Positions 1-64,000 of a stretch of 64,000 nt of DNA are shown here, piece by piece (positions within the stretch are counted from its first letter, which is position 1; every line of letters begins with the position of its first letter). Where the stretch lies: positions 684,563 through 748,562 of the forward strand of contig NC_009635.1 in assembly GCF_000017185.1 (NCBI RefSeq). Direction: 5' to 3'. The translations under genes and the position numbers were made by a program. The notes below the pieces were generated by a model that saw only the letters and a list, made by a program, of their open reading frames with translations, was not told the DNA's origin and ran no database searches. The DNA is from Methanococcus aeolicus Nankai-3. Its GTDB lineage: Archaea > AGJL01 > Methanococci > Methanococcales > Methanococcaceae.

Positions 1-1040
1 TAAAAGAAAATTTTTACGATGGTAAAACTTATGAAATAAGTTTGACATTACCAAAACATGAATTAACTTCCTTATTAAATACAAGCGGAAAATACCCCAT
101 AACCACAAAAAACAATTATGTTATTGTTGATGGGCTAAATGAAAAAGAAGGAGCAAATATAATAGATAAAGGGGCATATATAAATGAATGTCATCTAATA
201 TTATTCGGAGCTCCGTCGTTAAATGAATTATATGAAAAATTAAATAATTTTGATTTTCGTTCTGCATACCCCATACTACCAGAACATAGTTTTGCAGTTA
301 GAACGCTAAAAATTATACAAAATAATAATATTGACAGTGGCATAACTTCAATGGACATAGAACGAAAAGTAGGGGCAATTATTAAAAATAAAACTAATTC
401 ACCAGTTAATTTAAAAAATCCCGATAAAACCATAAAAATAATAATATTGGATAACATAATTTATTTTGCAATATTAATAAATGAAAGAAATAAAGAATAT
501 TATTTAAAAAATAGACCGCATTTAAGGGCATATTTCCACCCCGGTTGCATACTTCCAAAATTGGCAAGGTGCATGGTCAATATGGCACAGTTAAAAGAAG
601 GAGATATAATTTTAGACCCCTTTTGTGGAACTGGTGGCTTTTTAATAGAGGGAGGATTAATTGGCTGTAAATTAATTGGTAGCGACATAGATAATAGAAT
701 GGTTCAAGGTGCCTTATTGAATTTAAAAACCTATGAATTGGATAACAATGTAATATCAATTAAACAGTGGGACGCCTTAGATGCTAAAAACTATTTAAAA
801 TCATTAAATATTGAAAAAGTAGATACTATAATTACGGACCCTCCTTATGGTATGTCCACAGCTAAAAAGGGAGACATTGAACATATTTTAAATAATTTAA
901 AAGAATGTTTAAAAGATGGAGGATATTTGATATTTGCATCGCCAACGATATTAAATTTGGAGGATTTGGAGTTAGAGGGATTATATTCCATATACATACA
1001 TAAAAGTTTAACAAGATATATCCACATATACAAAAAATAA
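1..1040 (+). CDS. THUMP-type tRNA (guanine-N2) methyltransferase, 5' truncated by window edge
   Basis: The reading frame is open back to the first bases of the window, so the TTG at 42 is not the real start and the gene begins upstream. The visible C-terminal part has a class I SAM-dependent methyltransferase domain: the SAM-binding motif DPFCGTGG about 192 residues after codon 42 and the catalytic TDPPYG about 73 residues later. The preceding region (HSFAVRTLK onward) looks like the end of a THUMP RNA-binding domain. This arrangement matches archaeal Trm11/TrmG10 enzymes, which make N2-methyl or N2,N2-dimethylguanosine at tRNA position 10. The family is clear; the exact target is inferred. 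It converges with the gene that follows. Confidence 0.85.
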   Translation, partial: KENFYDGKTYEISLTLPKHELTSLLNTSGKYPITTKNNYVIVDGLNEKEGANIIDKGAYINECHLILFGAPSLNELYEKLNNFDFRSAYPILPEHSFAVRTLKIIQNNNIDSGITSMDIERKVGAIIKNKTNSPVNLKNPDKTIKIIILDNIIYFAILINERNKEYYLKNRPHLRAYFHPGCILPKLARCMVNMAQLKEGDIILDPFCGTGGFLIEGGLIGCKLIGSDIDNRMVQGALLNLKTYELDNNVISIKQWDALDAKNYLKSLNIEKVDTIITDPPYGMSTAKKGDIEHILNNLKECLKDGGYLIFASPTILNLEDLELEGLYSIYIHKSLTRYIHIYKK

Positions 1041-1053
1041 TAAAATATATTTT

Positions 1054-1554
1054 TTATAAAAAATATTCTTTTTTTAAAATTTCTACAAATTTATTGATTG
1101 TCTTATCAATGCCGTTTTTCTGTCTTTGAATTATATTTTTTTTAGATATTAAATCCCCCTCAATATCTGTTGTAAATAAATATTCATTTTTATCCGATAT
1201 TATACAAATGCCCCCTCTCCCAACTCCTGCGGTGGTGGCTATTGCAATATTACAGTTTAACGAGTTTTTAAGACCTTTTGCCAATATATGAGCTACCTTT
1301 AAATCGTTCTTTTCCGTGTATGCCTTTGAATAACTATATTCATAATCACATTTAGGTAGGGGAGCTCCTAAATTTAAAAGTTTTTCAGCCCCTTCAATAG
1401 ATGGAATAAATGAGGAGGAGATTATTTTTACATTTCCATTAATAATATTATAATATCTGTGGTTTTTGCATTCCTCATATCCAGAGGCTATTTTATGTAT
1501 TGTAGTTCCTATTTTTCCAAGTGTGAAGCATTCTGCTGTGGCTACTGTTATCAT
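1054..1554 (-). CDS. UPF0254 family protein
   Basis: A 166-residue protein opening with MITVATAECFTLG and containing a glycine-rich TTAGVGRGG stretch near residue 110. Both are typical of the UPF0254 family found in methanogens, whose function is not established. It lies 7 bp downstream of trmY on the same strand, so the two are probably cotranscribed. There is no signal peptide or membrane segment. One GGAGCTCC copy is read here as Gly-Ala-Pro (LNLGAPLP). Confidence 0.8.
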   Translation of the reverse strand: MITVATAECFTLGKIGTTIHKIASGYEECKNHRYYNIINGNVKIISSSFIPSIEGAEKLLNLGAPLPKCDYEYSYSKAYTEKNDLKVAHILAKGLKNSLNCNIAIATTAGVGRGGICIISDKNEYLFTTDIEGDLISKKNIIQRQKNGIDKTINKFVEILKKEYFL

Positions 1555-1561
1555 TTTATCA

Positions 1562-2176
1562 TTATTTTAATTTTGCCTTATCCAGTGCATTATGAACTAT
1601 GGTTATACAATGATTTGCATGGAGCTCCAAGGGAGATAATGATACTTTTAGAGCTCCGATATCTTCTAAAAATTTCTCATCCTCTTCCCCTATTCCTATG
1701 TGGTCCCCTAAAATAAATACTATATTTTTATTTTCCGCATTATTTTCCTTATTAAATATATTTTCAATATCTTCCCCATCTTTATGTAAATAATATATTT
1801 CTTTTCCTTCGTTCTTTTTTTCTAAAATTATGTCCTTAAATTCTTTTTTTGCTATGTATATTCCGCTGGTGCTTTCTTTCCATAGTTGCATTGGGCTTTT
1901 ATCCAGTGCTTTTTTTATAAATAGTGCTATACTTCGCTCGTCTGGGCTCACCCGTTTTAATTCTGAACCTACAAATTTTATGGCTACTGGTGGGTTGGGA
2001 GCTCCGTAATGAACAGAATAAAATATAGTATCTCTCCTTAAATCATGGGATAAAAAAAAGGCACTACTTACACATCTACATACTAAATCCATTCTACCGG
2101 AGCTCCCTGGCAAATCTTTTAAATTTATCTCTCCGTTGGTAATTGATTTATTTGCCTTAAATATAAATTCTATCAT
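1562..2176 (-). CDS. trmY: tRNA pseudouridine-54 N1-methyltransferase TrmY
   Basis: A 204-residue SPOUT-class methyltransferase. TrmY methylates pseudouridine 54 in the T-loop of archaeal tRNAs to N1-methylpseudouridine. Supporting features are [15 protein letters not shown] in the N-terminal third, VSPDERSIA in the middle, and the C-terminal SPOUT knot region with [13 protein letters not shown] and [12 protein letters not shown]. Length matches the family. GGTGA lies just upstream of the ATG. It precedes the UPF0254 gene in a likely two-gene unit. Three GGAGCTCC palindromes fall inside the gene, in three different reading frames. Confidence 0.9.
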
Positions 2177-2370
2177 CGTTTCACCTGTTATATTTTAACT
2201 CTAATTTTACCGTCGCCTCGAATATATGGGCCATAAACCCGAAGGTTTTATTTAATCAAATTTAAATTTTGCTATTATATATTAATATCGATACCACAGG
2301 GAGCTCCCTTTGCAACACAAATATCACTAAAAAATAAAAAAATAAAATATAATTTAAAAACAAAAACAAA

Positions 2371-3192
2371 TTATTCATTTAAATTCAATACATCAAAAGT
2401 ATTGTATATTTTTCCATCTTTTTTGTCTGCTATATATTTTACAGCTAAAACCACTCCACTTACAAATGCCTGTCTGCTACTTGCCTTATGTGTGAGCTCC
2501 AACCTTTCTCCATCTCCTGCAAATATAACGGTGTGGTCTCCAACAACATCTCCGCCCCTAAGAGCATGAATGCATATTTCTTCTTTTGTTCTTTCTCCAA
2601 CTAATCCCTCTCTACCATATATTGCCTTTGAGTCTCTGTTTAAATTATTTTGTATTATTTCCAATGCCCTTAATGCCGTTCCACTTGGTGCATCTTTCTT
2701 AAATTTATGGTGCATCTCCACTATCTCAATATCATAATCTCCTATTTTTTGAGCCAATAATTCCAATGTTTTAAAGAATATATTTACTCCAATGGCATAA
2801 TTTTGGGAGATAACTGCTCCAATATTGTTTTTATTTATTATCTCTTCCATTTCTTCCATTTGCTCATTTGTAAATCCTGTTGTCCCAACAACTAAATTTA
2901 CATTGTTTTCCGAGGCTATTTTTACAGTATTTACACAGGGTGCAGGAGCTGTAAAATCTACCAATACATCTGGCCTGGTTTCTTTTATAACTTTTTCAAG
3001 GTTATCGGCTGTTTCTAATGGAGCTCCGATATTTCCAATGCCGATTAATTCCCCAATGTCAATACCTTTTTTAGGGTGGTTCGGCACATCTATTGCCCCA
3101 ACAACTTTATAATCTTCTTTATTTTCGCATAGTGTTTTTATTATGGAGCTCCCCATTCTTCCAAGAGCTCCTGTGACCATTACTTTAATCAT
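2371..3192 (-). CDS. dapB: 4-hydroxy-tetrahydrodipicolinate reductase
   Basis: A 273-residue enzyme of the diaminopimelate/lysine pathway that reduces 4-hydroxy-tetrahydrodipicolinate with NAD(P)H. Visible motifs are the N-terminal Rossmann loop VTGALGRMGSS, VGTTGF in the middle, and the catalytic/substrate stretch EMHHKFKKDAPSGTA near residues 160-175. Its ATG overlaps the TGA of rnp4 by 4 bp, indicating translational coupling. The aspartokinase at 8.6 kb feeds the same pathway. Confidence 0.96.
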   Translation of the reverse strand: MIKVMVTGALGRMGSSIIKTLCENKEDYKVVGAIDVPNHPKKGIDIGELIGIGNIGAPLETADNLEKVIKETRPDVLVDFTAPAPCVNTVKIASENNVNLVVGTTGFTNEQMEEMEEIINKNNIGAVISQNYAIGVNIFFKTLELLAQKIGDYDIEIVEMHHKFKKDAPSGTALRALEIIQNNLNRDSKAIYGREGLVGERTKEEICIHALRGGDVVGDHTVIFAGDGERLELTHKASSRQAFVSGVVLAVKYIADKKDGKIYNTFDVLNLNE

Positions 3193-3896: not shown

Positions 3897-4292
3897 ATGT
3901 ATCCGGCAACTGTTGTAAGGGATTTAATGATAAGGGGAATATATGAAGTAAAATTAAACGACACCATTGAGGATGTTGTTAAAGTTATGGGTAAAAACGG
4001 CATATCTTCGGTAGTAGTTTCAGACGATAATAACACATACTGGGGAATAATAACTGAAATGGACATATTAAAACATTATAGTGAAAATTTGGAGAAATTA
4101 AAGGCAGAGGATATAATGGCCACCAAAATTATTCATATCAGCCCAATAGCTCCACTTGAAAAAGCTGCACAGATTATGGCAGAAAAAAAGATACATCATT
4201 TATATGTGGTTTCGGAGCTCCGGGAAGATAAAATCATAGGGACAATAAGTGCAGGCGACATTATAAAAATGATGCATGAATCATTGGAATAA
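3897..4292 (+). CDS. Two-CBS-domain protein
   Basis: A 131-residue protein made of two tandem CBS domains (about residues 5-60 and 70-130), a module that usually binds adenine nucleotides or SAM as a sensor. The start is placed at the ATG at 3897, MYPATVVRD, because GGTGAT sits just upstream; an in-frame ATG at 3858 would add 13 residues with no Shine-Dalgarno. The partner is unknown. The next gene, ribose-1,5-bisphosphate isomerase, lies 55 bp downstream on the same strand and belongs to nucleotide metabolism, which hints at nucleotide sensing (inference). Confidence 0.88.
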   Translation: MYPATVVRDLMIRGIYEVKLNDTIEDVVKVMGKNGISSVVVSDDNNTYWGIITEMDILKHYSENLEKLKAEDIMATKIIHISPIAPLEKAAQIMAEKKIHHLYVVSELREDKIIGTISAGDIIKMMHESLE

Positions 4293-4347: not shown

Positions 4348-5289
4348 ATGAAGCATAATAATAATAATAACTCAAATACTATAATAGACGCCCACAAAAA
4401 AATAAAAAATATGGAAATAAGGGGGGCGGGAAGGATCGGGAGAGCCGTAGCAAGTGCTTTAAAAGAATATTCTTTAACAATTCAAAATATAGAGAATAAC
4501 GAATTTAAAGAAAAAATGATTGAAGCAGGAGACATATTAAAATCAGCACGACCAACTGCGGTATCCCTCCCAAATGCTGTAAATTATGTGTTAAGTGGAT
4601 TAAATACCAATAATCCAAAGGAAAACATAATATTGAATGCCGAAGAATTTATAAAATCCTCCTCAGAAGCTACTTCAAAAATTGGAAAAATTGGCTCCAA
4701 CAGAATAAAAGATGGATGGACAATATTAACTCATTGTAATTCGGAAGCCGCAATTAGTGTAATAAAAACAGCACATAACAGCGGGAAAAATATAAAAGTT
4801 ATATGCACAGAGACACGACCAAGAAACCAAGGATATTTAACAGCAAAGGCGTTGGCGGACGAAGGTATTGACACCACATTAATAGTGGATAGTGCTGTAA
4901 GATACCACATTAAAGATGTGGATATTGTGGTGGTGGGTGCCGATGCCATAACCTCAAATGGTTGCCTTGTAAATAAAATAGGGAGCTCCCAAATAGCTTT
5001 AATGGCATATGAAAGAAAAATACCATTTTTAACAGCCGCAGAAACTTATAAATTTCACCCTAAAACAATAATCGGGGAAACAATAGAGATTGAGGAAAGG
5101 GCAGTTGGTGAAATACATGAATTTGAGGAAAAATATAAAGATAAAATAAAATTAAGAAATCCAGCTTTTGACATTACTCCTTCTCAATATATTGACGGAA
5201 TAATAACAGAAATAGGAATTATTCCGCCACAGGGAGCTTGGCATATAATAGAAAAATATTTTGGAAATGTATTTAAGGAAACACTTTAA
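4348..5289 (+). CDS. Ribose-1,5-bisphosphate isomerase (eIF2B-related)
   Basis: A 313-residue member of the eIF2B alpha/beta/delta-like family. Archaeal ribose-1,5-bisphosphate isomerases turn R15P into ribulose 1,5-bisphosphate in the AMP degradation route that feeds type III RuBisCO. Motifs are RGAGRIGRA near residue 27, THCNSEAAI, CTETRPRNQG and VGADAITSNG, followed by AAETYKFHP. Start chosen at ATG 4348 behind GGGGGTGAT; an upstream in-frame start at 4276 would overlap the previous gene. A related alternative is methylthioribose-1-phosphate isomerase or a true eIF2B subunit, but the motif set favours R15P isomerase. Confidence 0.85.
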   Translation: MKHNNNNNSNTIIDAHKKIKNMEIRGAGRIGRAVASALKEYSLTIQNIENNEFKEKMIEAGDILKSARPTAVSLPNAVNYVLSGLNTNNPKENIILNAEEFIKSSSEATSKIGKIGSNRIKDGWTILTHCNSEAAISVIKTAHNSGKNIKVICTETRPRNQGYLTAKALADEGIDTTLIVDSAVRYHIKDVDIVVVGADAITSNGCLVNKIGSSQIALMAYERKIPFLTAAETYKFHPKTIIGETIEIEERAVGEIHEFEEKYKDKIKLRNPAFDITPSQYIDGIITEIGIIPPQGAWHIIEKYFGNVFKETL

Positions 5290-5327: not shown

Positions 5328-6593
5328 ATGAACTACGGTGAAATTGTGAGTAAAGTTAAAGATATAAATTTAGCTCCTGAGGGAGATTTAAAAATGGAAT
5401 GGGCTAAAAACTATATGCCTGTATTAAATTCCATAAGGGAAGAATATTCAGCAGACAAACCATTCGAAGGCATCACAATAGGAATGGCACTTCATTTGGA
5501 GGCAAAAACTGCAATACTTGCCGAAACTCTAATGAATGGAGGGGCAAAAATTGTAATTACTGGCTGTAATCCATTATCTACACAAGACGATGTTGCTGCA
5601 AATTGTGTAAAAAAAGGAATGGAAGTTTATGCTTGGAGAGGAGAAACTGACGAAGAATATTATGAAAATTTAAATAAAGTTCTTGATGCCAAACCTGACA
5701 TTGTAATTGATGATGGTGCAGATTTAATATTTTTACTTCACACTCAAAGACAGGAGCTCCTTGATAGCATCATGGGAGGTTGTGAGGAAACCACCACAGG
5801 AATAATAAGATTAAAAGCTATGGCAGACGAAGGGGCTTTAAAATTCCCTGTTGTAAATGTAAATGATGCCTACACAAAACATTTATTTGACAATAGATAT
5901 GGAACAGGCCAAAGTGCTATTGATGGAATATTGAGAACAACAAATTTACTTATTGCCGGCAAAAATGTTGTAGTAGGAGGCTACGGCTGGTGCGGTAAAG
6001 GAGTAGCTATGAGAGCCGCAGGAATGGGGGCAAGTGTGATAATTACGGAAGTAGATGCCATTAGAGCATTAGAAGCTAAAATGGATGGATTTAGAGTAAT
6101 GACAATGAACGAAGCTTCAAAAATCGGAGATATATTTATAACTACAACAGGATGTAAAAATATTATCGGAGCTCCACACTTTTTGGTAATGAAAGATGGT
6201 GCAGTTCTTGCAAATGCTGGACATTTCGACAATGAAATAAACAAAGAAGAATTGAGTTCATTGGCAAAATCAGTTAAAACAGTTAGATACAATATTGAAG
6301 AATATGATTTAGGAAATAAAAAAATATATCTTCTTGGAGAAGGTAGGCTGGTAAATCTCGCCTGTGGAGATGGACACCCATGCGAAGTAATGGACATGAG
6401 CTTTGCGAATCAGGCACTTAGTGCAAAATTCATATTAGAAAATAATGGAAAACTTGAAAATAATGTATATGAAATACCTTATGAACAAGATTTAAGAATA
6501 GCTTCATTAAAATTAAAGTCAATGGATGTTGAAATAGATGAATTATCCCCAGAACAGAGAAAATATTTAGCTGACTGGAAAGAAGGAACTTAA
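5328..6593 (+). CDS. ahcY: S-adenosyl/S-inosyl-homocysteine hydrolase
   Basis: A 421-residue NAD-dependent hydrolase that removes the product of SAM-dependent methylation. In methanococci the enzyme is reported to prefer S-inosylhomocysteine. Motifs include HLEAKTAILAETL near residue 57, the substrate region FDNRYGTGQS, the NAD-binding loop VVGGYGWCGKG near residue 218, and GDGHPCEVMDMSFANQ with catalytic His/Cys near residue 350. The length is typical of the archaeal form. It lies 38 bp after the isomerase gene. A T-rich run downstream may end transcription. Confidence 0.96.
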   Translation: MNYGEIVSKVKDINLAPEGDLKMEWAKNYMPVLNSIREEYSADKPFEGITIGMALHLEAKTAILAETLMNGGAKIVITGCNPLSTQDDVAANCVKKGMEVYAWRGETDEEYYENLNKVLDAKPDIVIDDGADLIFLLHTQRQELLDSIMGGCEETTTGIIRLKAMADEGALKFPVVNVNDAYTKHLFDNRYGTGQSAIDGILRTTNLLIAGKNVVVGGYGWCGKGVAMRAAGMGASVIITEVDAIRALEAKMDGFRVMTMNEASKIGDIFITTTGCKNIIGAPHFLVMKDGAVLANAGHFDNEINKEELSSLAKSVKTVRYNIEEYDLGNKKIYLLGEGRLVNLACGDGHPCEVMDMSFANQALSAKFILENNGKLENNVYEIPYEQDLRIASLKLKSMDVEIDELSPEQRKYLADWKEGT

Positions 6594-6696: not shown

Positions 6697-6827
6697 TGGA
6701 TGTGTCTTTTAGATGACGATTATAGTATTATCCAGGAGGAGCTCCTATACTACTCGCTATGCTCGTAAGACATAGAACAAAAAATTAAAAATATTAATAT
6801 GAGATATTAAAAAAATAATAAAATAAT

Positions 6828-8306
6828 TTAAATCAATAAATTAACTCCTTCCATAACTGCCTCAACCGATGCCCTAATTATATCACTTTGAGATTTTTTA
6901 ACCTCTACAACTTCATTTCCTCTTCTCAATTTAACAACCACTTCAACTAGTGCATCTGTCCCCTTACCTATGGATGAAACTTGATAATCTATTAATGAAA
7001 TATCTGCAAATCCACTTAAAGCCTTTCTAAGTGCATTTATGGAGGCGTCAACAGGTCCAACCCCGTAGGCTGTTTCAATTATTGATTTATGTTTATTATC
7101 TTCGTCGGCAAAGTCCAATTTAATTGACGCCAATGGAGTTATTTTATTTCCAGATACTACTGTTAATTCATTTAATATAATTTTTTCGTCAATCTTATGC
7201 CCCTTAACTTCATTAATTACAGTTTTTAAATCGATATCTGAAATATATTTCCCCAAATCTCCAAGATTTTTAATTTTAGAATATACTTCCTCAAATTCCT
7301 CATTATTTAATGATACTTCCATTAAATTAAGCTTATATTTTAACGCCGATTTTCCACTGTGTTTTCCCAATATAATTCTTCTTTTATTCCCGACTTCTTC
7401 GGGAGATAATGGTTCGTAGGTGCTGGTGTGCTTCATAAGTCCATCTACATGTATTCCTGCTTCGTGGGCAAAAGCATTATCTCCAACAAGGGATTTATTT
7501 GGGGAAACAGGTAATTTCATTAACCTTGAAACAACTCTGGAAGTTTCATATAATTTTTCTGTGATTATTTTTGTTTTTTCGTTGTATAAATTATGTAAAG
7601 CCATTACAACCTCTTCAAGTGAAGAATTACCTGCCCTTTCCCCTATTCCATTAATTGTTAGATGACACTGCTTAGCTCCCCCCCTTATGGCACATAAAGT
7701 ATTTGCCGTAGCCATTCCAAAATCATTATGACAATGTGCTGAAATTGGTATATTTATGCTGTTGCTTAATGTTTTAAATAATTCTATTGATTTCTCGGGT
7801 GTTAATATTCCAACAGTATCGCAAACGCATGCCCTATCTGCTCCAATCTCTGCACCCTTTGAAAATAACTCTATTAAGAAGTTTATATCACTTCTTGTGG
7901 CATCTTCTGCTGACAATTCCACAATTAAACCGTGGTCTTTACCATATTGCACAGCCTCCAATGCCGATTGCAATGTTTCTTCGCTGGTTTTTTTCAATTT
8001 ATATTTCATGTGGAGCTCCGAGGTTGGAACCACTAAATGAACACTATCCACATCACATTCAAGGGCATGGTCTATGTCTATCGGTAGAGCTCTAACAAAT
8101 GAACATATTTCAGCATTTAAATTTTGCTGAGATATTAATTTTATGCCTTCTCTCTCTCCTTTTGAGGTTATGGCACTACCTGCTTCTATTATATCAACAT
8201 TTAATTCATCTAATTTTAAAGCTATTTCAAGCTTCTCCGATGGTGTTAATGAAACCCCTGGCGTCTGTTCTCCGTCTCTTAATGTTGTATCCAATATTTT
8301 TATCAT
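6828..8306 (-). CDS. cimA: (R)-citramalate synthase
   Basis: A 492-residue member of the isopropylmalate/homocitrate/citramalate synthase family. CimA condenses pyruvate and acetyl-CoA to citramalate, the threonine-independent entry to isoleucine in methanogens. The N-terminal TIM barrel shows LDTTLRDGEQTPGVSL at residues 4-19, the metal-site HCHNDFGMA, and GERAGNSSLEEV. HEAGIHVDG and LGKHSGKSAL follow. The C-terminal regulatory domain of about 120 residues is complete (AYGVGPVDAS). Isopropylmalate synthase is a close relative, but the overall sequence fits the methanococcal CimA type. It uses the downstream enzymes IlvB/IlvN/IlvD elsewhere in this window. Confidence 0.88.
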   Translation of the reverse strand: MIKILDTTLRDGEQTPGVSLTPSEKLEIALKLDELNVDIIEAGSAITSKGEREGIKLISQQNLNAEICSFVRALPIDIDHALECDVDSVHLVVPTSELHMKYKLKKTSEETLQSALEAVQYGKDHGLIVELSAEDATRSDINFLIELFSKGAEIGADRACVCDTVGILTPEKSIELFKTLSNSINIPISAHCHNDFGMATANTLCAIRGGAKQCHLTINGIGERAGNSSLEEVVMALHNLYNEKTKIITEKLYETSRVVSRLMKLPVSPNKSLVGDNAFAHEAGIHVDGLMKHTSTYEPLSPEEVGNKRRIILGKHSGKSALKYKLNLMEVSLNNEEFEEVYSKIKNLGDLGKYISDIDLKTVINEVKGHKIDEKIILNELTVVSGNKITPLASIKLDFADEDNKHKSIIETAYGVGPVDASINALRKALSGFADISLIDYQVSSIGKGTDALVEVVVKLRRGNEVVEVKKSQSDIIRASVEAVMEGVNLLI

Positions 8307-8542: not shown

Positions 8543-9973
<1,431 letters not shown>

Positions 9974-10093
9974 AAAACGAGGGAGCTCCCACAACGAAAA
10001 ACCATGGAGCTCCCAAATACATATTAAAAATTTTATTTTTAATTCTTTTTTAAAATATTAAATATAAAAATAGTTAAAAAAATATTAATTAAA
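9974..10093. other. Convergent intergenic spacer with two GGAGCTCC copies
   Basis: Between two convergent genes, two octamer palindromes sit 24 bp apart (starts near 9984 and 10008), each extended to GGGAGCTCCC or ATGGAGCTCCC. The rest is AT-rich and probably includes both terminators. Confidence 0.6.
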
Positions 10094-11302
10094 TTATTCT
10101 TCCAATATAACCTTTTCTTTATGTTTTGGATTGGTTTTTTCCTTATCTGATTCAATCTGTTTTTTAACTGATTCCAAAGCATCTTTTAATACTTCAATGA
10201 AATCCCATCTTTGTTTTTCAGATATAAGTTGAATATCTTCTCCCTCCACCCCTATTCTTTTTAATGTTGCCTGTTTTCCTTTTGCAAAATATAATTTTTT
10301 AGGAGTTTTTACATAGGCCTTAACTGTATAGTTTGGAACTCCTCCTTTGTCATGTTCTTTTTTAACTACAACTTTTATCCAGTGGAGATGTTTGGAGTAT
10401 TTTGCAATTTTTTGAACTTCTGTCACCAACATTCTTTCTGTAAGTTCTTTCATATACTCATCAAAATCACCGTGGAGCTCCACCTCTACAACTGATTCTT
10501 TTCTTAGGCTTTGGAGATATTTCATTATGTCCAATCTTGTAATCATTCCCCTTAATGTTCCATTTTTAAGAACTGGAATTCCTCTTATATCGTGATGTTC
10601 CATTAATTTTGCCGCATCAGTCACAGAATCATCTACATTACAGGATATTAAAGGAGAATTCATAATTATTGACACAGGTTGGGCCATTCTTGGAACTTTA
10701 TCTCCTGCCATATCTCCAACAGTCATTTTTTTCTTTGGTTTATATATTTTATAAAGTATATCTTCTTCTGTAATCATTCCTGTTGGTTCTGCATCTTTAT
10801 CAAGAATTACAAGCCTACTTATATCATATTTCCTCATTAGGCTTCTTGCCTTTCCTATGCTCTCATTGTAATCAATTGTTATAGGACTTTTTGACATTAA
10901 TTTATTTACTTTAACATCTTCCAACAATTCAGAAGTTGCAACTCTTTTCATTATGTCGTGGTCCGTAATAATTCCCACTAATTTTCCTTCATCATCTACA
11001 AGAGGGGCAGCTCTTTGTCCGCTGGACAATACCTCACAAACAGCATCCATAAAAGGAGTATTTTGGTTTATGCAATGTGGTTTAAACATTAAACTACTTA
11101 TTTTTTCATCTAATGATGTGGCAAGAAGTAAATCATGCATTATAACCATATTTATATTATTTTCATCATCTAGGACAATTAAATTGTGAAAATTATTTTT
11201 ATCCATTATCCCTATTGCTTTTGATATTGGGGTTTCTGGTGTTATTGTGTGTACATCTTTTGTAGCTACTTCTATTACTGGTTCATTTAGCATATCCCTC
11301 AC
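10094..11302 (-). CDS. Four-CBS-domain protein with HPF/RaiA-like C-terminal domain
   Basis: A 402-residue protein. Residues 1-280 contain four CBS domains in two pairs (repeated patterns such as DHDIMKRVA, EEDILYKI and TRLDIMKYL). The remaining region, about 283-380, begins with VEVELHGDFDEYMKELTERM and reads like a ribosome-hibernation-factor (HPF/RaiA, S30AE-like) beta-alpha fold, including HWIKVVVKKEHDKGG and YTVKAYVKTP. CBS-HPF architectures are known in some archaea. The inferred role is ribosome hibernation or RNA binding gated by adenine-nucleotide level. The CBS assignment is firm; the tail assignment is moderate. Confidence 0.8.
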   Translation of the reverse strand: MRDMLNEPVIEVATKDVHTITPETPISKAIGIMDKNNFHNLIVLDDENNINMVIMHDLLLATSLDEKISSLMFKPHCINQNTPFMDAVCEVLSSGQRAAPLVDDEGKLVGIITDHDIMKRVATSELLEDVKVNKLMSKSPITIDYNESIGKARSLMRKYDISRLVILDKDAEPTGMITEEDILYKIYKPKKKMTVGDMAGDKVPRMAQPVSIIMNSPLISCNVDDSVTDAAKLMEHHDIRGIPVLKNGTLRGMITRLDIMKYLQSLRKESVVEVELHGDFDEYMKELTERMLVTEVQKIAKYSKHLHWIKVVVKKEHDKGGVPNYTVKAYVKTPKKLYFAKGKQATLKRIGVEGEDIQLISEKQRWDFIEVLKDALESVKKQIESDKEKTNPKHKEKVILEE

Positions 11303-11400: not shown

Positions 11401-12081
11401 CTATTTATTTATCATTGATTTAAACATATTTAATCCATCATCTGAACCAAGGAGCTCCTCACTTGCCCTCTCAGGATGAGGCATTAATAAAACACAATTT
11501 CCTTTTTCGTTGCATACTCCTGCAATATTATCAACAGAACCATTTGGATTGGCCTCCTCTGTGATATTTCCATGTTCATCACAGTATTTAAATACAATCA
11601 TGTTTTTTTCATACATTTTTTGAAGGGTTTCTTCATCTGCATAAAATCTACCTTCTGCATGTGCCACAGGTATTTTTAAAACATCTCCAACATTGTAGTA
11701 TTTTGTGAATGGTGTGTTGTTATTTTCAACTCTGATATATACCCATTTACAAATAAATCTTGCACTTTCATTATTTGTAAGAGTTCCGTAGGAAAATCCA
11801 GCTTCTAAACCTATTTGAGCTCCATTGCAAATACCCAATACTGGTTTTCCGTCATCTACCATTTTTTTCAGAGCTCCCACAATAGGAGTTTTTGAGCTTA
11901 TTGCTCCAGCTCTTAAATAATCGCCGTAGGAAAATCCTCCGGGAATAACTGCACCGGCATAATTATCTATATTTTTTTCGGAAAACCATATTAAATGGGG
12001 AGCTCCCCCTGCTAATTTTATAGCATGACATACATCATTATCACAATTTGTTCCTAAAAATTTTGCAACTGCAATGTCCAT
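11401..12081 (-). CDS. purQ: Phosphoribosylformylglycinamidine synthase subunit PurQ
   Basis: A 226-residue class I glutamine amidotransferase subunit that provides ammonia to PurL in purine synthesis. The catalytic cysteine is in GICNGAQIG (Cys85), the glycine-rich oxyanion region in PGGFSYGDYLRAGA, and the His/Glu pair in LMPHPERASEELLG near the C-terminus. Length is normal for the small archaeal PurQ. It lies downstream of the histone gene on the same strand with a 49-bp gap. Confidence 0.96.
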   Translation of the reverse strand: MDIAVAKFLGTNCDNDVCHAIKLAGGAPHLIWFSEKNIDNYAGAVIPGGFSYGDYLRAGAISSKTPIVGALKKMVDDGKPVLGICNGAQIGLEAGFSYGTLTNNESARFICKWVYIRVENNNTPFTKYYNVGDVLKIPVAHAEGRFYADEETLQKMYEKNMIVFKYCDEHGNITEEANPNGSVDNIAGVCNEKGNCVLLMPHPERASEELLGSDDGLNMFKSMINK

Positions 12082-14261: not shown

Positions 14262-14460
14262 ATTATCACCATATAAAAAAAATGAAATATAAAAAATTAA
14301 AAATGTATATACTATATAAAAGCTAATTAATAATATTAAAATATTTTTATAAAATTCTTTGGTTTGGGAGCTCCGTGTAATTCAACATTTATTAAATATT
14401 TAACGATGTCCCCAAAATAAAAAAAATACGATAATCAAGATTATCGTTTTAATATATTTT

Positions 14461-21401: not shown

Positions 21402-21474
21402 TATGACATAGGCATGTGTGTTTTGGGAGCTCCTATCACTATAATATATAGTTATATATTTATTTCTTTTTTAT

Positions 21475-36428: not shown

Positions 36429-36546
36429 TATATAGTTCGTTCGGGAGCTCCTTACAATGATGCTGTTTTGATGTCCTATTTTATGGCATACGATAGACAA
36501 ATCAAATAAATTCCTTACAGAATTTGACTTTTTGAACACACAATTA
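36429..36546. repeat. MITE-like element, family 2, carrying a GGAGCTCC
   Basis: About 118 bp. Left end TATATAGTTCGTTCGGGAG, right end GACTTTTTGAACACACAATTATA. The GGAGCTCC sits next to the left end. The right end is almost the same as the left end of the element near 32341. Confidence 0.55.
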
Positions 36547-47582: not shown

Positions 47583-47601
47583 AGGGAGCTCCAAGGAGCT
47601 C
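47583..47601. repeat. Tandem pair of GGAGCTCC palindromes
   Basis: GGGAGCTCCAAGGAGCTCCC: two octamers 9 bp apart in the divergent spacer between mre11 and the methyltransferase gene. The whole is itself nearly symmetric. The Shine-Dalgarno GGTGAAATT of the next gene is separate and further downstream. Confidence 0.85.
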
Positions 47602-47618
47602 CCAAAATTGGTGAAATT

Positions 47619-51544: not shown

Positions 51545-53161
51545 ATGAAACAAATAAAATTAAAAATAAAATTAAATGGAGTATTTAAAGAATATTTCGT
51601 TCCAAATAATATAACTGTTTTAGAAGCATTAGAATACATAAATAAAACATACAACGAAAATATACAATATAGGGCATCATGTAGGGCAGGACAGTGTGGA
51701 AGTTGTGCCATGACGATAAATAACGAACCAAAACTTGCCTGTAAAACAAAAGTAGAGCATAACACAACAATAGAACCATTGAAAAATTTCATTGTGATTA
51801 AAGATTTAATAGTAGATAGGGAACAATATTATAAAAAATTGAATAATATAAGAAATTATGTAGAAAATGAAAAGGAAATTTTTTCTGGCGAAAATATTCA
51901 AAATAAAGAAGATACAATAAATGATTCGGAGAATACAGAAAATAATAAAATAGATACCTTAAAAGACAAAACAATAACAGCAATAAACAGCGCCGGGGAC
52001 ATAACCAATATAAAAAAAATAAGGGGTTGCATAGATTGCCTGTCTTGTCTCTCAAAATGTCCAGCAAAGGAGTTTTCAGAATACCCTGGTCCAACTTTAA
52101 TGAGACAGATTGCAAGATTTGCATTTGATAAAAGAGACAATATAAACAGGTGTGAAATGGCATTTTTTGAAAATTTACCAAATTGCACAACCTGTGGAAA
52201 ATGTGTTGAAGTGTGTCCAAAAGAAATTGACATAGTACATAATGCCGTGGAAAAATTAAGGGCAAAAGCCTTTGAAAATGGATATTATTTAAAGGAGCAT
52301 ATGGAAGTTCGAAAAAATGTATTAAATAAAAATAATAACAACAGGTCTATAATTAAAGAGAAAACTCCATTGTTGGAAGAAGTGCATAATGAGTATATTG
52401 TTGAACATGAAAAAATGAGGGTGGCCTTTTTTACGGGCTGTTTGGTGGATTATAGACTTCAAGATGTGGGAAAAAGTGCTATAAAAATATTAAATGCTCA
52501 TGGAATTTCTGTAATTATTCCAAAAAATCAAATTTGTTGCGGTTCTCCATTTATACGAACAGGTCAAACGGATGTGGCCAATACTTTAAAAAATCATAAT
52601 TTAAATATATTTAACAATTTAGAAGTTGATGCCATAATTACTGTATGTGCGGGGTGCGGTAGCACACTTAAAAACGATTACAAAGAAAAAGAATTTAAAG
52701 TTATGGATATCACCGAAATATTAAACAAAGTGGGACTTATAAACTATAATCCACTTAAAGACCATACAAAATTAATAGGAATTCCAACAGAGGAACACGA
52801 TAAAAAAATAAAAATAACATATCATGATCCATGTCATTTGAGAAGGGGACAAGGCATATTTGTTGAACCACGAAAAATATTAAGACATATTCCAAATTTG
52901 GAATTTATTGAGATGGAGCTCCCTGACCAATGTTGTGGTGCTGGTGGCGGTGTAAGAAGTGGAAAACCAGAATTAGCAAGTGCAATAGGAAAAAGAAAAG
53001 CTAAAATGATAGCAGATACAGATGCCGATTTTGTAATTACTGTATGTCCATTTTGCGAATACCATATAAAAGATAGCATAAATAAATACAATAAAGAAAA
53101 TGATATTAAAAAAGATACTAAGGTATTAAATATAGTATCTCTACTTGATAAGGTGATTTAA
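51545..53161 (+). CDS. tfrB: Thiol:fumarate reductase subunit B (CoM/CoB type)
   Basis: A 538-residue iron-sulfur protein. An N-terminal [2Fe-2S] domain has Cys46, Cys51, Cys54 and Cys66 (CRAGQCGSCAM). Two [4Fe-4S] sites are CIDCLSCLSKCP and CTTCGKCVEVCPK. C-terminal CCG domains (CCGSPF, QCCGAGGG) resemble HdrB and bind the heterodisulfide-forming thiols. TfrAB reduces fumarate with coenzymes M and B in methanogens. A linker of about 70 residues rich in Asn/Asp separates the [2Fe-2S] and [4Fe-4S] parts. TfrA is not adjacent; hmgA starts at the next base. Confidence 0.92.
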   Translation: MKQIKLKIKLNGVFKEYFVPNNITVLEALEYINKTYNENIQYRASCRAGQCGSCAMTINNEPKLACKTKVEHNTTIEPLKNFIVIKDLIVDREQYYKKLNNIRNYVENEKEIFSGENIQNKEDTINDSENTENNKIDTLKDKTITAINSAGDITNIKKIRGCIDCLSCLSKCPAKEFSEYPGPTLMRQIARFAFDKRDNINRCEMAFFENLPNCTTCGKCVEVCPKEIDIVHNAVEKLRAKAFENGYYLKEHMEVRKNVLNKNNNNRSIIKEKTPLLEEVHNEYIVEHEKMRVAFFTGCLVDYRLQDVGKSAIKILNAHGISVIIPKNQICCGSPFIRTGQTDVANTLKNHNLNIFNNLEVDAIITVCAGCGSTLKNDYKEKEFKVMDITEILNKVGLINYNPLKDHTKLIGIPTEEHDKKIKITYHDPCHLRRGQGIFVEPRKILRHIPNLEFIEMELPDQCCGAGGGVRSGKPELASAIGKRKAKMIADTDADFVITVCPFCEYHIKDSINKYNKENDIKKDTKVLNIVSLLDKVI

Positions 53162-54418
<1,257 letters not shown>

Positions 54419-54921: not shown

Positions 54922-55968
54922 ATGAAAATAATTAAAGAAATACCTGAAAAAAATATAATTAAAGTTATGCCCGAAAACTTAGATGATTTATGGCACCTAT
55001 CAAATATAATTTTAAAAAATAATGCTGTTTCTGCAATGACGGAGAGACGAACAGAAGATAAAGGGGATAAATTAAGGGCAGATAGAGGGACAAAAAGAAG
55101 AGTTTATTTAGGGGTTAAAGCAGAAAAAATAAAATTTGATGAAAATACCAATAGATTAAGGGTCAGTGGCCCAATAATCCATGGTCCAGAGGATGTTCCA
55201 ATTGGCTCATATCACACCATAGACATAGAACCACTTAAAGATGTATCCATACAAAAAAACTGGAAAAAATGGGATTTACAAAGGTTAAAAGATGCCGAAA
55301 ATTCTGCAAAAAAACCAAAAATTATAGTTGTGATTATGGACGATAGCGATGCTACCGTATTTATAATCAGAGATTATGGGGTAAAAGAGATAGGACATAT
55401 AAAATCAAGATTATCTAAAAAATTAGACTACAAAAGGCAAGACCAAGAAAATATAAATTATTACAACGAAATACTTGAAGTAATGTCGCCATACGAAGGA
55501 AAAATACTTGTAGCAGGTCCGGGATTTACAAAAAACAATTTTCAAAAATATCTGTCTGAAAAACACAAAGATATGCTCCAAAGGGTTGTATTTGAATCCA
55601 CAAACCATACTGGACGATTAGGACTTGCAGAAGTTTTAAAATCTGGTATCGTGGATAGAATTTATGGGGAAGCTCGCCTTAGTAAGGAAACTCAATTGGT
55701 AAATAAATTATTAGAAGAAATTTCAAAAAAAGGACTTGCAGTTTATGGTGTTGATGATGTTAAAAATGCTTTAAATTATTCTGCAATTGAAACTTTATTA
55801 ATTACAGATGAATTTTTAAGAAAAAATAGGAGAATTTTAGAGGATTTAATTAATTCTGTTGAAGCTATTGGTGGGAGCTCCATTATAATCTCCACAGAAT
55901 ATGATGTAGGAAAACAGTTGAAAGCACTTGGTGGAATAGGAGGTTTATTAAGGTTTCCTATTGAATAA
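54922..55968 (+). CDS. pelA: mRNA surveillance protein Pelota
   Basis: A 348-residue ribosome-rescue factor homologous to eRF1/Dom34. Archaeal Pelota works with aEF1A on stalled ribosomes. N-terminal Sm-like domain: DLWHLSNIILKNNAVSA and TKRRVYLGVKAEKI. Central domain includes VAGPGFTKNNFQKYL, and the C-terminal domain has ETLLITDEFLRKNR. The start is ATG 54922, one base after the tfx stop; the longer open frame overlaps tfx. Confidence 0.96.
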   Translation: MKIIKEIPEKNIIKVMPENLDDLWHLSNIILKNNAVSAMTERRTEDKGDKLRADRGTKRRVYLGVKAEKIKFDENTNRLRVSGPIIHGPEDVPIGSYHTIDIEPLKDVSIQKNWKKWDLQRLKDAENSAKKPKIIVVIMDDSDATVFIIRDYGVKEIGHIKSRLSKKLDYKRQDQENINYYNEILEVMSPYEGKILVAGPGFTKNNFQKYLSEKHKDMLQRVVFESTNHTGRLGLAEVLKSGIVDRIYGEARLSKETQLVNKLLEEISKKGLAVYGVDDVKNALNYSAIETLLITDEFLRKNRRILEDLINSVEAIGGSSIIISTEYDVGKQLKALGGIGGLLRFPIE

Positions 55969-55979: not shown

Positions 55980-56879
55980 TTATCTAATTATAAAATCATA
56001 TATCATTCCAATTAAAGCACTTATTAAAACCACACTACCAAAATATTTTAATGTTATTTTTAGCCCATATCCTTTTTTCATAGTTAATAACAGGGGAAGC
56101 CCCAAAGTTGGAGCAGATATTAAAAATGAAATTATCAATCCTTTTTGAATTCCTTCAATCGCAACAGATTTTATAATTGGTATCATTGCATGAGGACATA
56201 AAAAAATAAATACCCTAAGTATTGAAACATAAAAATATGAATAAATATTATTTGAAAGAATTAATAATATGGCATCTTTTGAAATAAAAGTAATAATAAT
56301 CCCAGATATCAAAAATCCAAGCACCATTGAGGGAAGAAATTTTTTTAATTGCCCAATGAATATTTCAAAAAAATTTTCATGATAATTTTTATTTTTAACA
56401 ATTATATCATAGTTGATAATGGGAGCTCCCTCATTATAAAACAGCAAACCCACCAAAATAGATAACATCAACGATGCCAATATTTGAATAATTGTCATTT
56501 CATAGCCTAACATGGACAATGTTAGCATAATGGTTATGGGATTTATTGAGGCAGCTGACACGATAAATGCCATACTCATTCCTAAATTTGCATTTTTTGA
56601 ATTTAAGGCATTTGCTACGGGAATACCACTTGCAGAACATAAAGGCAGTATTGCCCCAATAAATGATAATATTAGTAGGGAGATAATACTGCCATCCAAA
56701 TTATGGAGTATTCTTTTTTTAAAATTACTATTAATATTCATTTTTATGATGGTCGATAAAATAAACCCAAATAAAATATATGGAAGTGCCATCCAAAAAA
56801 AATTAAAAGAATGTTCCAATATAATAAATATTGTATTGATATTAATTATATTAGTTATATTAGTTATATTTATTATCAT
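55980..56879 (-). CDS. DUF318/UPF0718-type permease
   Basis: A 299-residue membrane protein with about eight helices. The repeated motif FIGAILPLCSASGIPVANAL and the CPHAMIPIIKSVAIEG segment resemble DUF318 permeases (ArsP-like). Transported substrate unknown. The start is placed at ATG 56879; it overlaps the 3' end of the upstream ferredoxin-like gene by 20 bp, implying coupling. TATA(A/C)C repeats encode an Ile/Asn/Thr-rich N-terminus. Confidence 0.8.
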   Translation of the reverse strand: MIINITNITNIININTIFIILEHSFNFFWMALPYILFGFILSTIIKMNINSNFKKRILHNLDGSIISLLILSFIGAILPLCSASGIPVANALNSKNANLGMSMAFIVSAASINPITIMLTLSMLGYEMTIIQILASLMLSILVGLLFYNEGAPIINYDIIVKNKNYHENFFEIFIGQLKKFLPSMVLGFLISGIIITFISKDAILLILSNNIYSYFYVSILRVFIFLCPHAMIPIIKSVAIEGIQKGLIISFLISAPTLGLPLLLTMKKGYGLKITLKYFGSVVLISALIGMIYDFIIR

Positions 56880-58906: not shown

Positions 58907-59941
58907 TAAAATCTTTAAGTTATCACTTAAATGTGCCTTCCCAACATCAGATTTAGATTTTAAAACTTTTCCTACCATATAGGCATAATTTCCGCTTATT
59001 CGTAGTTTTTCAACCAATTTATCGGCATAATTCGGATTTACAGATATAAACAATCCACCCGCGGTTTCGGCACCATATCCTTTTAATAATTGATGTCCAA
59101 ACGATGAAGACAGATAGTCGGTTTTTTTAATAATCGGAAGAAGATTTATCTCTATATCGACATCACTTTGTTCAGCCATTTCTTGACTATGTCCCAATAT
59201 TCCAAAACCCGTAATATCCGTCATTGCATTTGCTATCTTTTCATTATTTTCCCGCTCCAATTCTCGCAGTGCCATTAGTGCCCCCCGATTTGAAGTAGTC
59301 ATTAATTCAATAGCCTTATCAATTATTCTTTCCTTTTCTTTTGCAGTTATTTCCAATAGGTCTTCATATTCTTCCCCTACTCGAGATAGTGCCATAGCCG
59401 ACTGTGTGCCCAATGGTTTTGTCAATATTAATATATCTCCTTCTTTCGCCCCTCCTTTTGTAAGTATATCCTCTTTTCTACCTACGCCACTAACAGAGCC
59501 CCCAATTATCGGAGCAGGGTTTAATATGGTATGTCCGCCGATTATTGTTGTATCATCAGCCCTACAAAAGTCCTGAAATCCTTTTAACATTTCTTTTGCA
59601 CATTCTATCGGAAGATTTTGAGGAATTCCCATTATTACCAATACACCAATTATATCCAATACGCCCATAGCATAAACATCGCTTATAGAGTTGCATGCTG
59701 CTATTTTGCCCTGTGTATATGGGTCATCTACAATGGGAGTAAAAACATCTACGGTTTTTACTATTGCAAGGTTGTTTCTAATAATTACGGCGGCATCATC
59801 ACCTAATCCAACGAGGGTTTTTTCTAAATCTTCTTTTGATATAATGTCTTTTACCAGTGCCTCTAATTCTGTGTTGGGAAGTTTGCAAGCTCATCCATGG
59901 AGCTCCACCATTTGAGTTAATTTTATATCTTTTGATTTAAT
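58895..59941 (-). CDS. selD: Selenophosphate synthetase SelD, a selenoprotein (UGA decoded as Sec)
   Basis: The enzyme makes selenophosphate from selenide and ATP. Reading up from 59668, the frame stays open to 59911 and beyond except for one TGA at 59893-59891 in VELHG-TGA-ACKLP, the family active-site position normally Cys or Sec. GLGDDAAVI, TVDVFTPIVDDPYTQGKIAA and NSISDVYAMG follow, so the 257-residue ORF ending at 59668 is a truncation. The start could be ATG 59911 (338 aa) or ATT 59941 (348 aa); the ATT lies 4 nt after GGTGA, and the ATG has no Shine-Dalgarno. A SECIS lies downstream. Confidence 0.93.
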
Positions 59942-60546: not shown

Positions 60547-60607
60547 AGATAAAAATATAATAAAAATATAATAAAAATAACTAATAATAGAGTAATTTTT
60601 TAATTTA

Positions 60608-61204
60608 TTATAATTCTTCAATTTTCTTTTTATTTCGTGGCATACATATTATTTCCCTTACTTCACTATCAAAAAAGTTTTTCATAATTGAAGGTTTTAA
60701 AACTATTGCCGTATCTACTCCCTTACTTCTCCCCCCTATAGCTATAACTTCCTCTTTTGTAGGTATTAATCCTGCATCTGCTGCCATTAGAGATACCTCA
60801 TAAGCCACTTTTAAACCATGCCCAAAATTTCTTAAAGTTTGGGCAATAATTTCAACAGGATTTGCTCCACCAAATTTAGTTGAAATTGCTCTTTCTACAC
60901 CACTAAGAGCATGACCTCCCATGAATACTTTTGCCCCCTGCTCATTTAGTTTTTTTATGGTTTCTTCATCAATGGACATTTTATCCACTTCATGAAACCC
61001 TTGATGGTAGGATACGGTTGATACAGATATATTTAGCTTTTTTTCTTTTATTATTTCCAATAATTTCAATGCTGAATCTCCCGTTGTAGATGATATTACT
61101 ATATTTTTAATATTTAATTCTTCTGCCCTATTCACTGCCAACTTTAAAGTCTCCTCTGTGTTCGGAGCTCCTGCATATTCAAAATAAGTAATGGATTTTT
61201 CCAT
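60608..61204 (-). CDS. Pyruvate-kinase alpha/beta-domain-like protein
   Basis: A 198-residue protein homologous to the C-terminal (alpha/beta) domain of pyruvate kinase but without the catalytic barrel. EYAGAPNTEETLKLAVNRAE, IVISSTTGDSALKLLEI and GGRSKGVDTAIVLKPS show the fold. Stand-alone versions are common in archaea; the role is unclear. GGTGATATT precedes the ATG. The upstream DNA contains a duplicated leader with a hairpin. Confidence 0.82.
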   Translation of the reverse strand: MEKSITYFEYAGAPNTEETLKLAVNRAEELNIKNIVISSTTGDSALKLLEIIKEKKLNISVSTVSYHQGFHEVDKMSIDEETIKKLNEQGAKVFMGGHALSGVERAISTKFGGANPVEIIAQTLRNFGHGLKVAYEVSLMAADAGLIPTKEEVIAIGGRSKGVDTAIVLKPSIMKNFFDSEVREIICMPRNKKKIEEL

Positions 61205-61290: not shown

Positions 61291-62257
61291 ATTTTTTTAT
61301 GGTTTCTTTATTTTTTAAATCATATTCCATTAAATCTTCTGCTACAATAATTTTGAAATTATTGTCATTATATTCATTATTATTTTTAATAATATTTTCT
61401 ATTTCATTATAATATATTTCAATATTGTCATCATATCTCGCCGAGATATGGGTCAATATCACCGTATCCACACAGGCAATTTTTCCGATATTTACAGCAT
61501 CTTCTATGGTGGAGTGCATGGTTTCAACTGCATTATTTTTCTTGGAGCTCCCAAATGTTGCCTCATGAATTAATACTGTACAACCAATTGAGTTTAAAAA
61601 CTCCCCAAAATCTTCAATTGGCATGGTGTCTCCACTATATGCTACGCACATGCTATCTTTTGGAGGTAAAAGCACATCATTTGGGTATATGATTTTTCCA
61701 TTTTTCAATTTTACTTCGTTGCCATCTTTTAATGATTTTAAATCTGGTCCAACTTCTACGCCTAATTCCATGGCTTTCTTTAAATTTAATTGTGGTTTCT
61801 TTTTCTCTTTAAGAATATATGCATAACAAGGTATAGAATGATTTACTGGATAGGCATATGCCATATATTTTTCACTATCTATTATTTTCATTGGTTTTTT
61901 GGAATTTATCTCATGGACAGTTATTTTAAAATTAATGGAATGATATCCAATTTTTAAAATATTTTCAATTGTATTTTTTATTTCAGGCGGACCATATATA
62001 TTTATTGGTTCTGTTCGTCCATTAAATCCAATTGATTGAAGAAGCCCTGCAAGTCCTAATATATGGTCACCATGAAGATGAGATATGAATATATTATTTA
62101 TTTTCATGGGTGATATGTCTGTGTATATCATTTGTCGCTGAGTTCCCTCCCCACAATCGAATAAAAAAACCTCGCCATCGTATTTAATTCCTACTGAAGA
62201 ATGATTTCTATGTTTTGTTGGAATAGCCGCACCAGTGCCTAAAAAAATAATTTTCAT
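61289..62257 (-). CDS. rnz: Ribonuclease Z
   Basis: A 322-residue metallo-beta-lactamase-fold endonuclease that trims tRNA 3' ends. Motifs: [18 protein letters not shown] at the start, the zinc motif [16 protein letters not shown] near residue 60, YSGDTMP near 210, [11 protein letters not shown] and [13 protein letters not shown]. Length is standard. GGCGATATT precedes the ATG. Confidence 0.96.
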
Positions 62258-62278
62258 AATATCGCCCAGATGGTTTAT

Positions 62279-62466: not shown

Positions 62467-62507
62467 ATTTATTTATTTGAAAAGTAAAAAGTTCTCAAAC
62501 CTATTTA

Positions 62508-62631: not shown

Positions 62632-62672
62632 ATGGAGCTCCTGAATACCCCTAAAAAATGATTAAATTTATT

Positions 62673-63065: not shown

Positions 63066-63149
63066 AATACCACCGATTCTAATTTATTAAGTTATGTAGT
63101 GATAAATTATATATATATTTATCATTATAATATACACCACCAGTATATT

Positions 63150-63262
63150 TATAGTGTGTTCGAAAAATGTGTTATAAGGATTTAGTTTATTAGATTATAC
63201 TATTTAATATTTTAACATAACATTATATTATTGACTGTAAAAAGTTCTCGAACGCCATATAT
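63150..63262. repeat. MITE-like element, family 2
   Basis: About 113 bp. Left end TATAGTGTGTTCGAAAAATG, right end AAAAGTTCTCGAACGCCATATA. Upstream of the two-CBS gene at 63302. Confidence 0.6.
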
Positions 63263-63301
63263 AATTCAAATATATAATAAAATAGATATGGGGGCACAAA
63301 T

Positions 63302-63700
63302 ATGAAAATAAAAGAAATAATGAATCCAACAGTGTATAAATTAAGTGAAACCTGCACATTAGCCGAAGCATTCAATATGATGCAAAATAAAGGGATAAAA
63401 AGAATATTTGTAGAAGATTTTAACAACAAGATAGTCGGGGTATTAAGTTATGGTGACATAGCAGAGGCAATTGTGAAAAATTCCAATGAATTATTGGATA
63501 TTATGGCCAATAATATAAAAAATATTTCATTGAAAGAGGTTTTAACCATTAATGAAAACCACGACATAAAAGAGGGGGCAAAAATTATGGTTCATGCAGG
63601 TGTATCTGCTTTATTAGTTATAGATGATAATAATAATTTCGTTGGAACCATATCGCAGACAGACATACTTAGATATACGATTAAAGAAAATATATTATAA
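63302..63700 (+). CDS. Two-CBS-domain protein
   Basis: A 132-residue protein with two CBS domains (about residues 1-60 and 70-130): EIMNPTVYKLSETCTLAEAF, GVLSYGDIAEAI, then MVHAGVSALLVIDDNNNFVG and TISQTDILRYTI. It is a sensor-type module with an unidentified partner. ATG 63302 fits; GGGGGC lies upstream. It is the third CBS protein in the window. Confidence 0.9.
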   Translation: MKIKEIMNPTVYKLSETCTLAEAFNMMQNKGIKRIFVEDFNNKIVGVLSYGDIAEAIVKNSNELLDIMANNIKNISLKEVLTINENHDIKEGAKIMVHAGVSALLVIDDNNNFVGTISQTDILRYTIKENIL

Positions 63701-63757
63701 TTAATAAATAATAATAATAATAATAATAAATTAAAAATAATAAAATAGAGGAAAATT

Positions 63758-64000
63758 ATGAAAATATTAGTAGTGATTGCACCAGAAAATTTTAGGGATG
63801 AAGAATTATTTGAACCATTGCATATATTTAATAAAAATAATATTGATTTCGATGTAGTATCTACTACAAAGGGAGAACATACCGGTATGTTGGGCGGAAA
63901 AATAACAACAACCACGAATATTGACGAAATAGATGAAAAAGATTATTGTGGAATTGTTATAGTGGGTGGCTCGGGTTCAAAAGAATATTTATGGAATAAC
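63758..64000 (+). CDS. DJ-1/PfpI family protein, 3' truncated by window edge
   Basis: The first 81 residues are present: MKILVVIAPENFRDEELFEP, then FDVVSTTKGEHTGMLGGKIT and GIVIVGGSGSKEYLWN. This is the N-terminal half of a DJ-1/PfpI flavodoxin-like fold; the catalytic cysteine would lie beyond the window. Start ATG 63758, with GAGGAAAATT upstream. Confidence 0.88.
   Translation, partial: MKILVVIAPENFRDEELFEPLHIFNKNNIDFDVVSTTKGEHTGMLGGKITTTTNIDEIDEKDYCGIVIVGGSGSKEYLWNN

Follow-up and report, generated by a model that had tools for sequence, protein, structure and literature searches.

What causes the same short palindrome to recur about once per kilobase in the DNA of a methanogen? The window considered here is a 64-kb stretch of the Methanococcus aeolicus Nankai-3 genome (bases 684,563-748,562 of its single contig of 1,569,500 bases), and the element in question is the octamer GGAGCTCC, which an earlier note on this DNA had likened to HIP1, the highly iterated palindrome (HIP) of cyanobacteria. 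Anatomically, GGAGCTCC is a HIP. Its accumulation is tentatively attributed below to biased uptake or exchange of DNA, a process that would not depend on methylation.

Abundance and anatomy of the palindrome

The window contains exactly 64 exact copies of GGAGCTCC, in line with the ~64 that the note had counted by eye; in 100 shuffles that preserve dinucleotides, the mean is 0.26 and the highest count 2. The whole genome, rebuilt from stretches for counting, contains 1259 copies (0.80/kb) against 4.1 expected from an order-1 Markov model or 10 from an order-2 model (observed/expected ratio, O/E, ~307). The control word CCTCGAGG is absent genome-wide. No octamer of the genome is more strongly over-represented, and the words ranking next by O/E overlap this site. 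Thus, the count is not near the Markov expectation and the enrichment is not confined to the window, the two outcomes that the note had named as fatal to its proposal. Local duplication within the window was considered as a cause and is ruled out by the genome-wide number. A palindromic oligomer present at hundreds of copies per Mb or more, far beyond Markov expectation, has the abundance of a HIP.

The repeated unit is more accurately seen as a core, GAGCTC, at ~1/kb. There are 1645 copies of GAGCTC in the genome, where 70 are expected, and 77% of them (1259) lie within GGAGCTCC. G or C is favoured at the bases next outside the core, and GGGAGCTCCC is additionally favoured (40% G at -1). Among one-off variants of GGAGCTCC, 268 of 496 differ at the outermost positions (1 or 8), as is typical of HIPs; positions 3-4 are nearly invariant except for G-to-A at position 4. 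A weak symmetrical flank has T at -5 and A at +5 from GAGCTC. The frequency of T at -5 is 0.475, 0.474, 0.530 and 0.462 in the four genomes that bear the palindrome (see below), against a background of ~0.35, and the preference is also seen when spacers are taken alone. The weakly favoured bases form a wider, symmetric footprint of ~16 bp. GGAGCTCC is a perfect palindrome with symmetric flanks, and does not have the oriented, non-palindromic form of an uptake signal.

HIP1 (GCGATCGC) and the alternate HIPs of cyanobacteria occur at about 500-2500 per Mb (Elhai 2015, PMC4390886). GGAGCTCC resembles HIP1 in being a GC-rich palindrome found at about 800 per Mb throughout coding and spacer DNA, with a core that varies less than the outer bases, extended flanks and a patchy occurrence among relatives. 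The comparison drawn in the note is borne out by these features. The differences are the archaeal host, the core GAGCTC, the lack of a detectable cognate methyltransferase or MutS, and the absence of the GGAGCTCC palindrome from other genomes of the genus and from sister groups.

Placement within the genome

The 64 sites of the window are listed below by position. The site itself is assigned no strand; the sign is that of the open reading frame (ORF), and the phase is given by the residues encoded (GAP, Gly-Ala-Pro; EL, Glu-Leu; SS, Ser-Ser).

207..214, ORF +, GAP
1361..1368, ORF -, GAP
1621..1628, ORF -, EL
1998..2005, ORF -, GAP
2099..2106, ORF -, SS
2300..2307, spacer
3020..3027, ORF -, GAP
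3145..3152, ORF -, SS
4214..4221, ORF +, EL
4982..4989, ORF +, SS
5753..5760, ORF +, EL
6168..6175, ORF +, GAP
6738..6745, spacer
8012..8019, ORF -, EL
9700..9707, ORF +, EL
9982..9989, spacer, right behind a stop codon
10006..10013, spacer
10474..10481, ORF -, EL
11451..11458, ORF -, EL
11999..12006, ORF -, GAP
13811..13818, ORF -, EL
14367..14374, spacer
14825..14832, ORF -, GAP
15516..15523, ORF -, EL
17499..17506, ORF +, GAP
20520..20527, ORF +, GAP
21203..21210, ORF +, EL
21286..21293, ORF +, SS
21426..21433, spacer, converging ORFs on either side
22739..22746, ORF +, EL
23871..23878, ORF +, EL
23977..23984, ORF +, GAP
25048..25055, ORF +, SS
27302..27309, ORF +, EL
28962..28969, spacer
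29529..29536, ORF +, EL
31733..31740, ORF -, GAP
32657..32664, spacer
34980..34987, ORF +, GAP
36444..36451, spacer
36672..36679, ORF +, EL
37243..37250, ORF +, GAP
37883..37890, ORF +, EL
39032..39039, ORF +, EL
39358..39365, ORF +, EL
40370..40377, ORF -, EL
40791..40798, ORF -, GAP
42841..42848, ORF -, GAP
43285..43292, ORF -, SS (3' end)
44727..44734, ORF -, EL
45609..45616, ORF -, EL
45639..45646, ORF -, EL
47585..47592, spacer, paired with the next site, 10 nt apart
47595..47602, spacer, paired with the preceding site, 10 nt apart
48241..48248, ORF +, SS
50585..50592, ORF +, SS
52915..52922, ORF +, EL
53329..53336, ORF +, EL
55874..55881, ORF +, SS
56422..56429, ORF -, GAP
59899..59906, short ORF +, SS
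61164..61171, ORF -, GAP
61544..61551, ORF -, SS
62634..62641, spacer
Core-only GAGCTC (18 more sites, no strand assigned): the first at 1651..1656, the others starting at 2494, 3165, 8087, 11817, 11871, 14222, 16054, 17370, 18213, 21037, 23800, 25557, 29627, 46942, 49142, 53589 and 54366

The window also includes an ORF (48639-49431) in which a short coding repeat, LPNSE(S/N)CEVSGET, occurs three times in tandem in near-identical form.

All three reading frames and the spacers are used, as the note had claimed and as in HIPs: 24 window sites are read as xEL, 17 as GAP and 11 as xSS, and 12 are in spacers, with genome-wide numbers of 479, 359, 174 and 246. Strands and frames are used alike, and the sites are independent of gene direction. 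The note's further statement, that sites follow coding density, is roughly correct, but spacers have 19.5% of GGAGCTCC sites and only 14.4% of bases, and their share is uneven. Density is up to 3.3/kb at 15-30 nt past stop codons, whereas the 45 nt preceding starts are depleted (~0.5/kb). This contrast argues against a role in ribosome binding. The suggestion in the note that the GGAG half-site pairs with the 16S anti-Shine-Dalgarno sequence, and so would act in translation, draws on sequence similarity only, and is hardly credible given the depletion upstream of starts, the enrichment after stops and the equal use of strands and frames.

In comparison with each of the eight relatives, codons that overlap GGAGCTCC show amino-acid identity below a residue-matched expectation (0.508 vs 0.733 for genome G022 and 0.566 vs 0.752 for G033, among others). 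Either the site changed residues or it arose where constraint was weak, and in both cases the force acts on DNA. Thus, sites in all frames and in spacers, together with protein conservation below expectation, support the note's view that the signal acts at the level of DNA, not protein.

The sites are also spaced more evenly than random. In 2-kb bins the variance/mean ratio is 0.80, compared with 1.00+-0.05 in simulation (0 of 2000 runs as low); evenness at about one copy per kb is a property of uptake signals. It persists in concatenated coding sequence (z of about -2.5 to -2.9 at 1-2 kb and -1.1 at 5 kb) and grows when islands are excluded. Of four comparison words, three are over-dispersed and one is neutral. 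The longest site-free gaps include clusters of surface-glycan genes and an element whose ATPase was judged by eye to be FtsK/HerA-like. GAGCTC is absent from the first glycan cluster (398-412 kb, 14 kb); the second (435-451 kb) has 9 and the ATPase element has 4, and thus not all of the islands are devoid of the core.

Methylation, repair and restriction

For every alternate HIP a methyltransferase has been reported, and in Elhai's model methylation combined with a mismatch-repair bias ratchets near-sites into sites, with a central GC (PMC4390886). A comparable origin for GGAGCTCC, in which a methyltransferase marks GAGCTC and biased mismatch repair converts near-sites, fits its anatomy well (a palindrome at 0.8/kb, with the central GC of the model (PMC4390886), a near-invariant inner core and variable outer bases). 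The gene content, however, points elsewhere, and we consider this origin improbable. No cognate METHYLTRANSFERASE was found by a motif scan of all ORFs of 60 aa or longer or by a search for three Pfam families (N6_N4_Mtase, C5 and HsdM) across 36 Methanococcales genomes. Thus the methyltransferase that the note had thought conceivable, possibly as an orphan gene, did not emerge from either search. The sole DNA methyltransferase found in this genome is an N4-methylcytosine (m4C) enzyme of the N6_N4_Mtase family and CTAG (MjaI/MaeI) type, located outside the window (207511-208851, minus strand); it carries a C-terminal staphylococcal-nuclease-like domain (PF00565), and its gene overlaps that of an MjaI-family endonuclease. 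In the family search, none of the 12 genomes of this genome's genus gave a C5 methyltransferase. Methanothermococcus okinawensis IH1, which also bears the palindrome, encodes two type I HsdM genes and an Eco57I-type methyltransferase on its plasmid; this genome lacks an Eco57I-like enzyme, and no methyltransferase is common to the two organisms. The plasmid enzyme lies near a PLD-helicase protein (pMETOK01, L272, 5082-12634), an arrangement that resembles a defence operon.

Single-molecule real-time (SMRT) sequencing detects 5-methylcytosine poorly. The SMRT methylome of M. aeolicus PL15/Hp, a strain other than Nankai-3 whose own GGAGCTCC count is not established, includes CTAG, GTNAC, GCACY and CGAG, plus ACGT modified by MaeII, and has no m4C or N6-methyladenine at GAGCTC (PMC10113651).

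The repair side of the model is similarly lacking. No MutS_V match was identified in the four bearing genomes, and a motif search, the only search made for MutL, found no MutL motif in the ORFs of this genome. Near-site hexamers are not depleted genome-wide (O/E ~1), and there is no ratchet signature in the form of missing one-off sites. A functionless by-product of mutation or conversion bias that ignores distance, produced for example by a Vsr-like or site-specific conversion enzyme of unknown family, would account for action at the DNA level on chromosome and plasmid alike. We regard this as still more doubtful, given that even spacing is unexpected for sites arising independently, that near-sites are not depleted and that no Vsr was found in the four bearing genomes. 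In the same genomes DndC had no match over the cut-off, so there is no sign of Dnd phosphorothioate modification.

The core is identical to the SacI restriction-modification site. However, the site is enriched here, not avoided, and a cognate methyltransferase/endonuclease pair was not identified: there is no methyltransferase candidate, and RE_SacI had no match in a search whose positive control was uninformative. As association with a methyltransferase was tested and not found, GGAGCTCC looks and behaves like a HIP but is not assigned to the methylation-linked kind.

Other short palindromes are extremely avoided in the whole genome (ACGT, 41 vs 1416 expected; GATC, 330 vs 4121), with no matching methyltransferase found in Nankai-3. 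GGCC, GCGC and GTAC are also low.

Occurrence in relatives and on a plasmid

Among the 36 Methanococcales genomes surveyed, exactly four have GAGCTC at 0.9-1.2/kb: this genome (G000, 1645 copies), M. okinawensis IH1 (G023, 2070), G029 (1315) and G033 (1515). In each of the remaining 32 genomes of the order there are 4-229 copies. Only in M. aeolicus is the core sharpened into the octamer, with 1259 copies of GGAGCTCC compared with 335, 184 and 191 in the other three bearers. In an RpoA' tree, which leaves out G029 because no RpoA' match was obtained from it, G000 and G023 group together (with modest support) and G033 falls with Methanococcus, a genus without the palindrome. The distribution thus requires two changes or more. 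The second contig of G023, identical to plasmid pMETOK01 (15 kb), has 13 GAGCTC against 0.59 expected.

When M. aeolicus sites are aligned to M. okinawensis, 38% are identical in position and 6% are one-off; for composition-matched hexamers in the same alignment the values are 16% and 32%. Positions are therefore either kept or well diverged. This conservation, more than double that of the control, is among the observations consistent with the palindrome being the binding site of a dimeric protein for chromosome organisation, segregation, topology or repair loading, needed every kb or so and with each site kept by selection. The symmetrical extended flank, the even spacing and the independence of gene direction and frame would also fit. 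We nevertheless think such a function somewhat unlikely. Selection would have to maintain more than 1000 sites one by one, despite altered amino acids, which is a demanding requirement; sites also occur on a 15-kb plasmid, close relatives manage without them, and no such protein was identified.

AGCT, the centre of GAGCTC, is strongly avoided in samples of the palindrome-free genomes G028, G030 and G031 (in G028, 21 vs 236 expected). Six further genomes sampled for alternate palindromes showed only mild enrichment of CTGCAG. Among 77 methanogen loci around mcrA, GAGCTC is enriched in just one, from a Methanothermococcus metagenome-assembled genome (MAG). In two Methanobacteriaceae MAGs, L169 and L213, TAGCTA / ATAGCTAT are over-represented (37 vs 8.6; 9 vs 0.5 in ~20 kb), possibly a different palindrome enrichment.

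A possible uptake or exchange signal

The uptake signals of Haemophilus (uptake signal sequence, USS) and Neisseria (DNA uptake sequence, DUS) occur at ~1 per kb, are evenly spaced and enriched after genes, and are recognised unmethylated. Related species have variant flanks (“dialects”), and the extended flank is weak. GGAGCTCC shares the density, the even spacing, the enrichment after genes, the weak extended flank and the common core with species-variant flanks. It differs in being palindromic, and hence without orientation.

The ~16-bp symmetric footprint, even spacing, shared core with species-specific flanks, presence on a plasmid and scarcity in islands together suggest a dimeric protein and a benefit per fragment. 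Our tentative interpretation, held at less than even confidence, is that GGAGCTCC is a HIP with a GAGCTC core, putatively recognised by a dimer in unmethylated form and accumulated by biased DNA uptake or exchange. DNA carrying the site would be preferentially taken up, or used as donor in exchange between chromosome copies or lineages. Sites would pile up by biased transfer, as in Haemophilus and Neisseria, wherever protein and RNA function tolerates them, to ~1 per kb; past that density, one more site on a fragment would bring nothing. M. aeolicus may have sharpened the shared core into the octamer in the manner of an uptake-signal dialect. More broadly, the palindrome could be a methylation-independent HIP that serves as an archaeal uptake or exchange signal, recognised by a dimeric protein, spreading in a few Methanococcaceae over chromosomes and plasmids alike, and overwriting protein sequence wherever possible; we consider this conceivable, with due reserve. 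Natural transformation is known in the family, in M. maripaludis (PMC10133366).

Biased uptake or exchange appears to explain the accumulation most cheaply, and a chromosome-binding function is almost as good. Several points weigh against uptake or exchange. The genus Methanococcus, including the naturally competent M. maripaludis, lacks the palindrome, and nothing in the literature consulted establishes that M. aeolicus or M. okinawensis is competent. The analysis identified neither a receptor nor any other protein that binds GAGCTC, nor was any gene seen to follow the four bearers in its occurrence. Other functions that depend on spacing would account for the even spacing and the plasmid carriage just as well, and the apparent amino-acid cost could partly come from sites having arisen at weakly constrained positions of proteins. 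The uptake signals known to us are not palindromic.

Significance

In the open-access literature, to which the search was limited, we found no report of HIPs or other over-represented palindromes in methanogens, of GGAGCTCC in connection with Methanococcus or of archaeal uptake signals; the note had likewise known of no equivalent in methanogens. HIP1 has gone unexplained for decades, and in the best model it is linked to a methyltransferase and mismatch repair. An equally extreme palindrome occurs here in another domain of life, with both apparently missing. Such sequences may thus not generally require methylation. The cause is directly testable, given four bearing genomes, 32 relatives without the palindrome (several of them close), one carrier plasmid and a genome of small size. 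If GGAGCTCC does act as an uptake signal, it would be, to our knowledge, the first reported for archaea.

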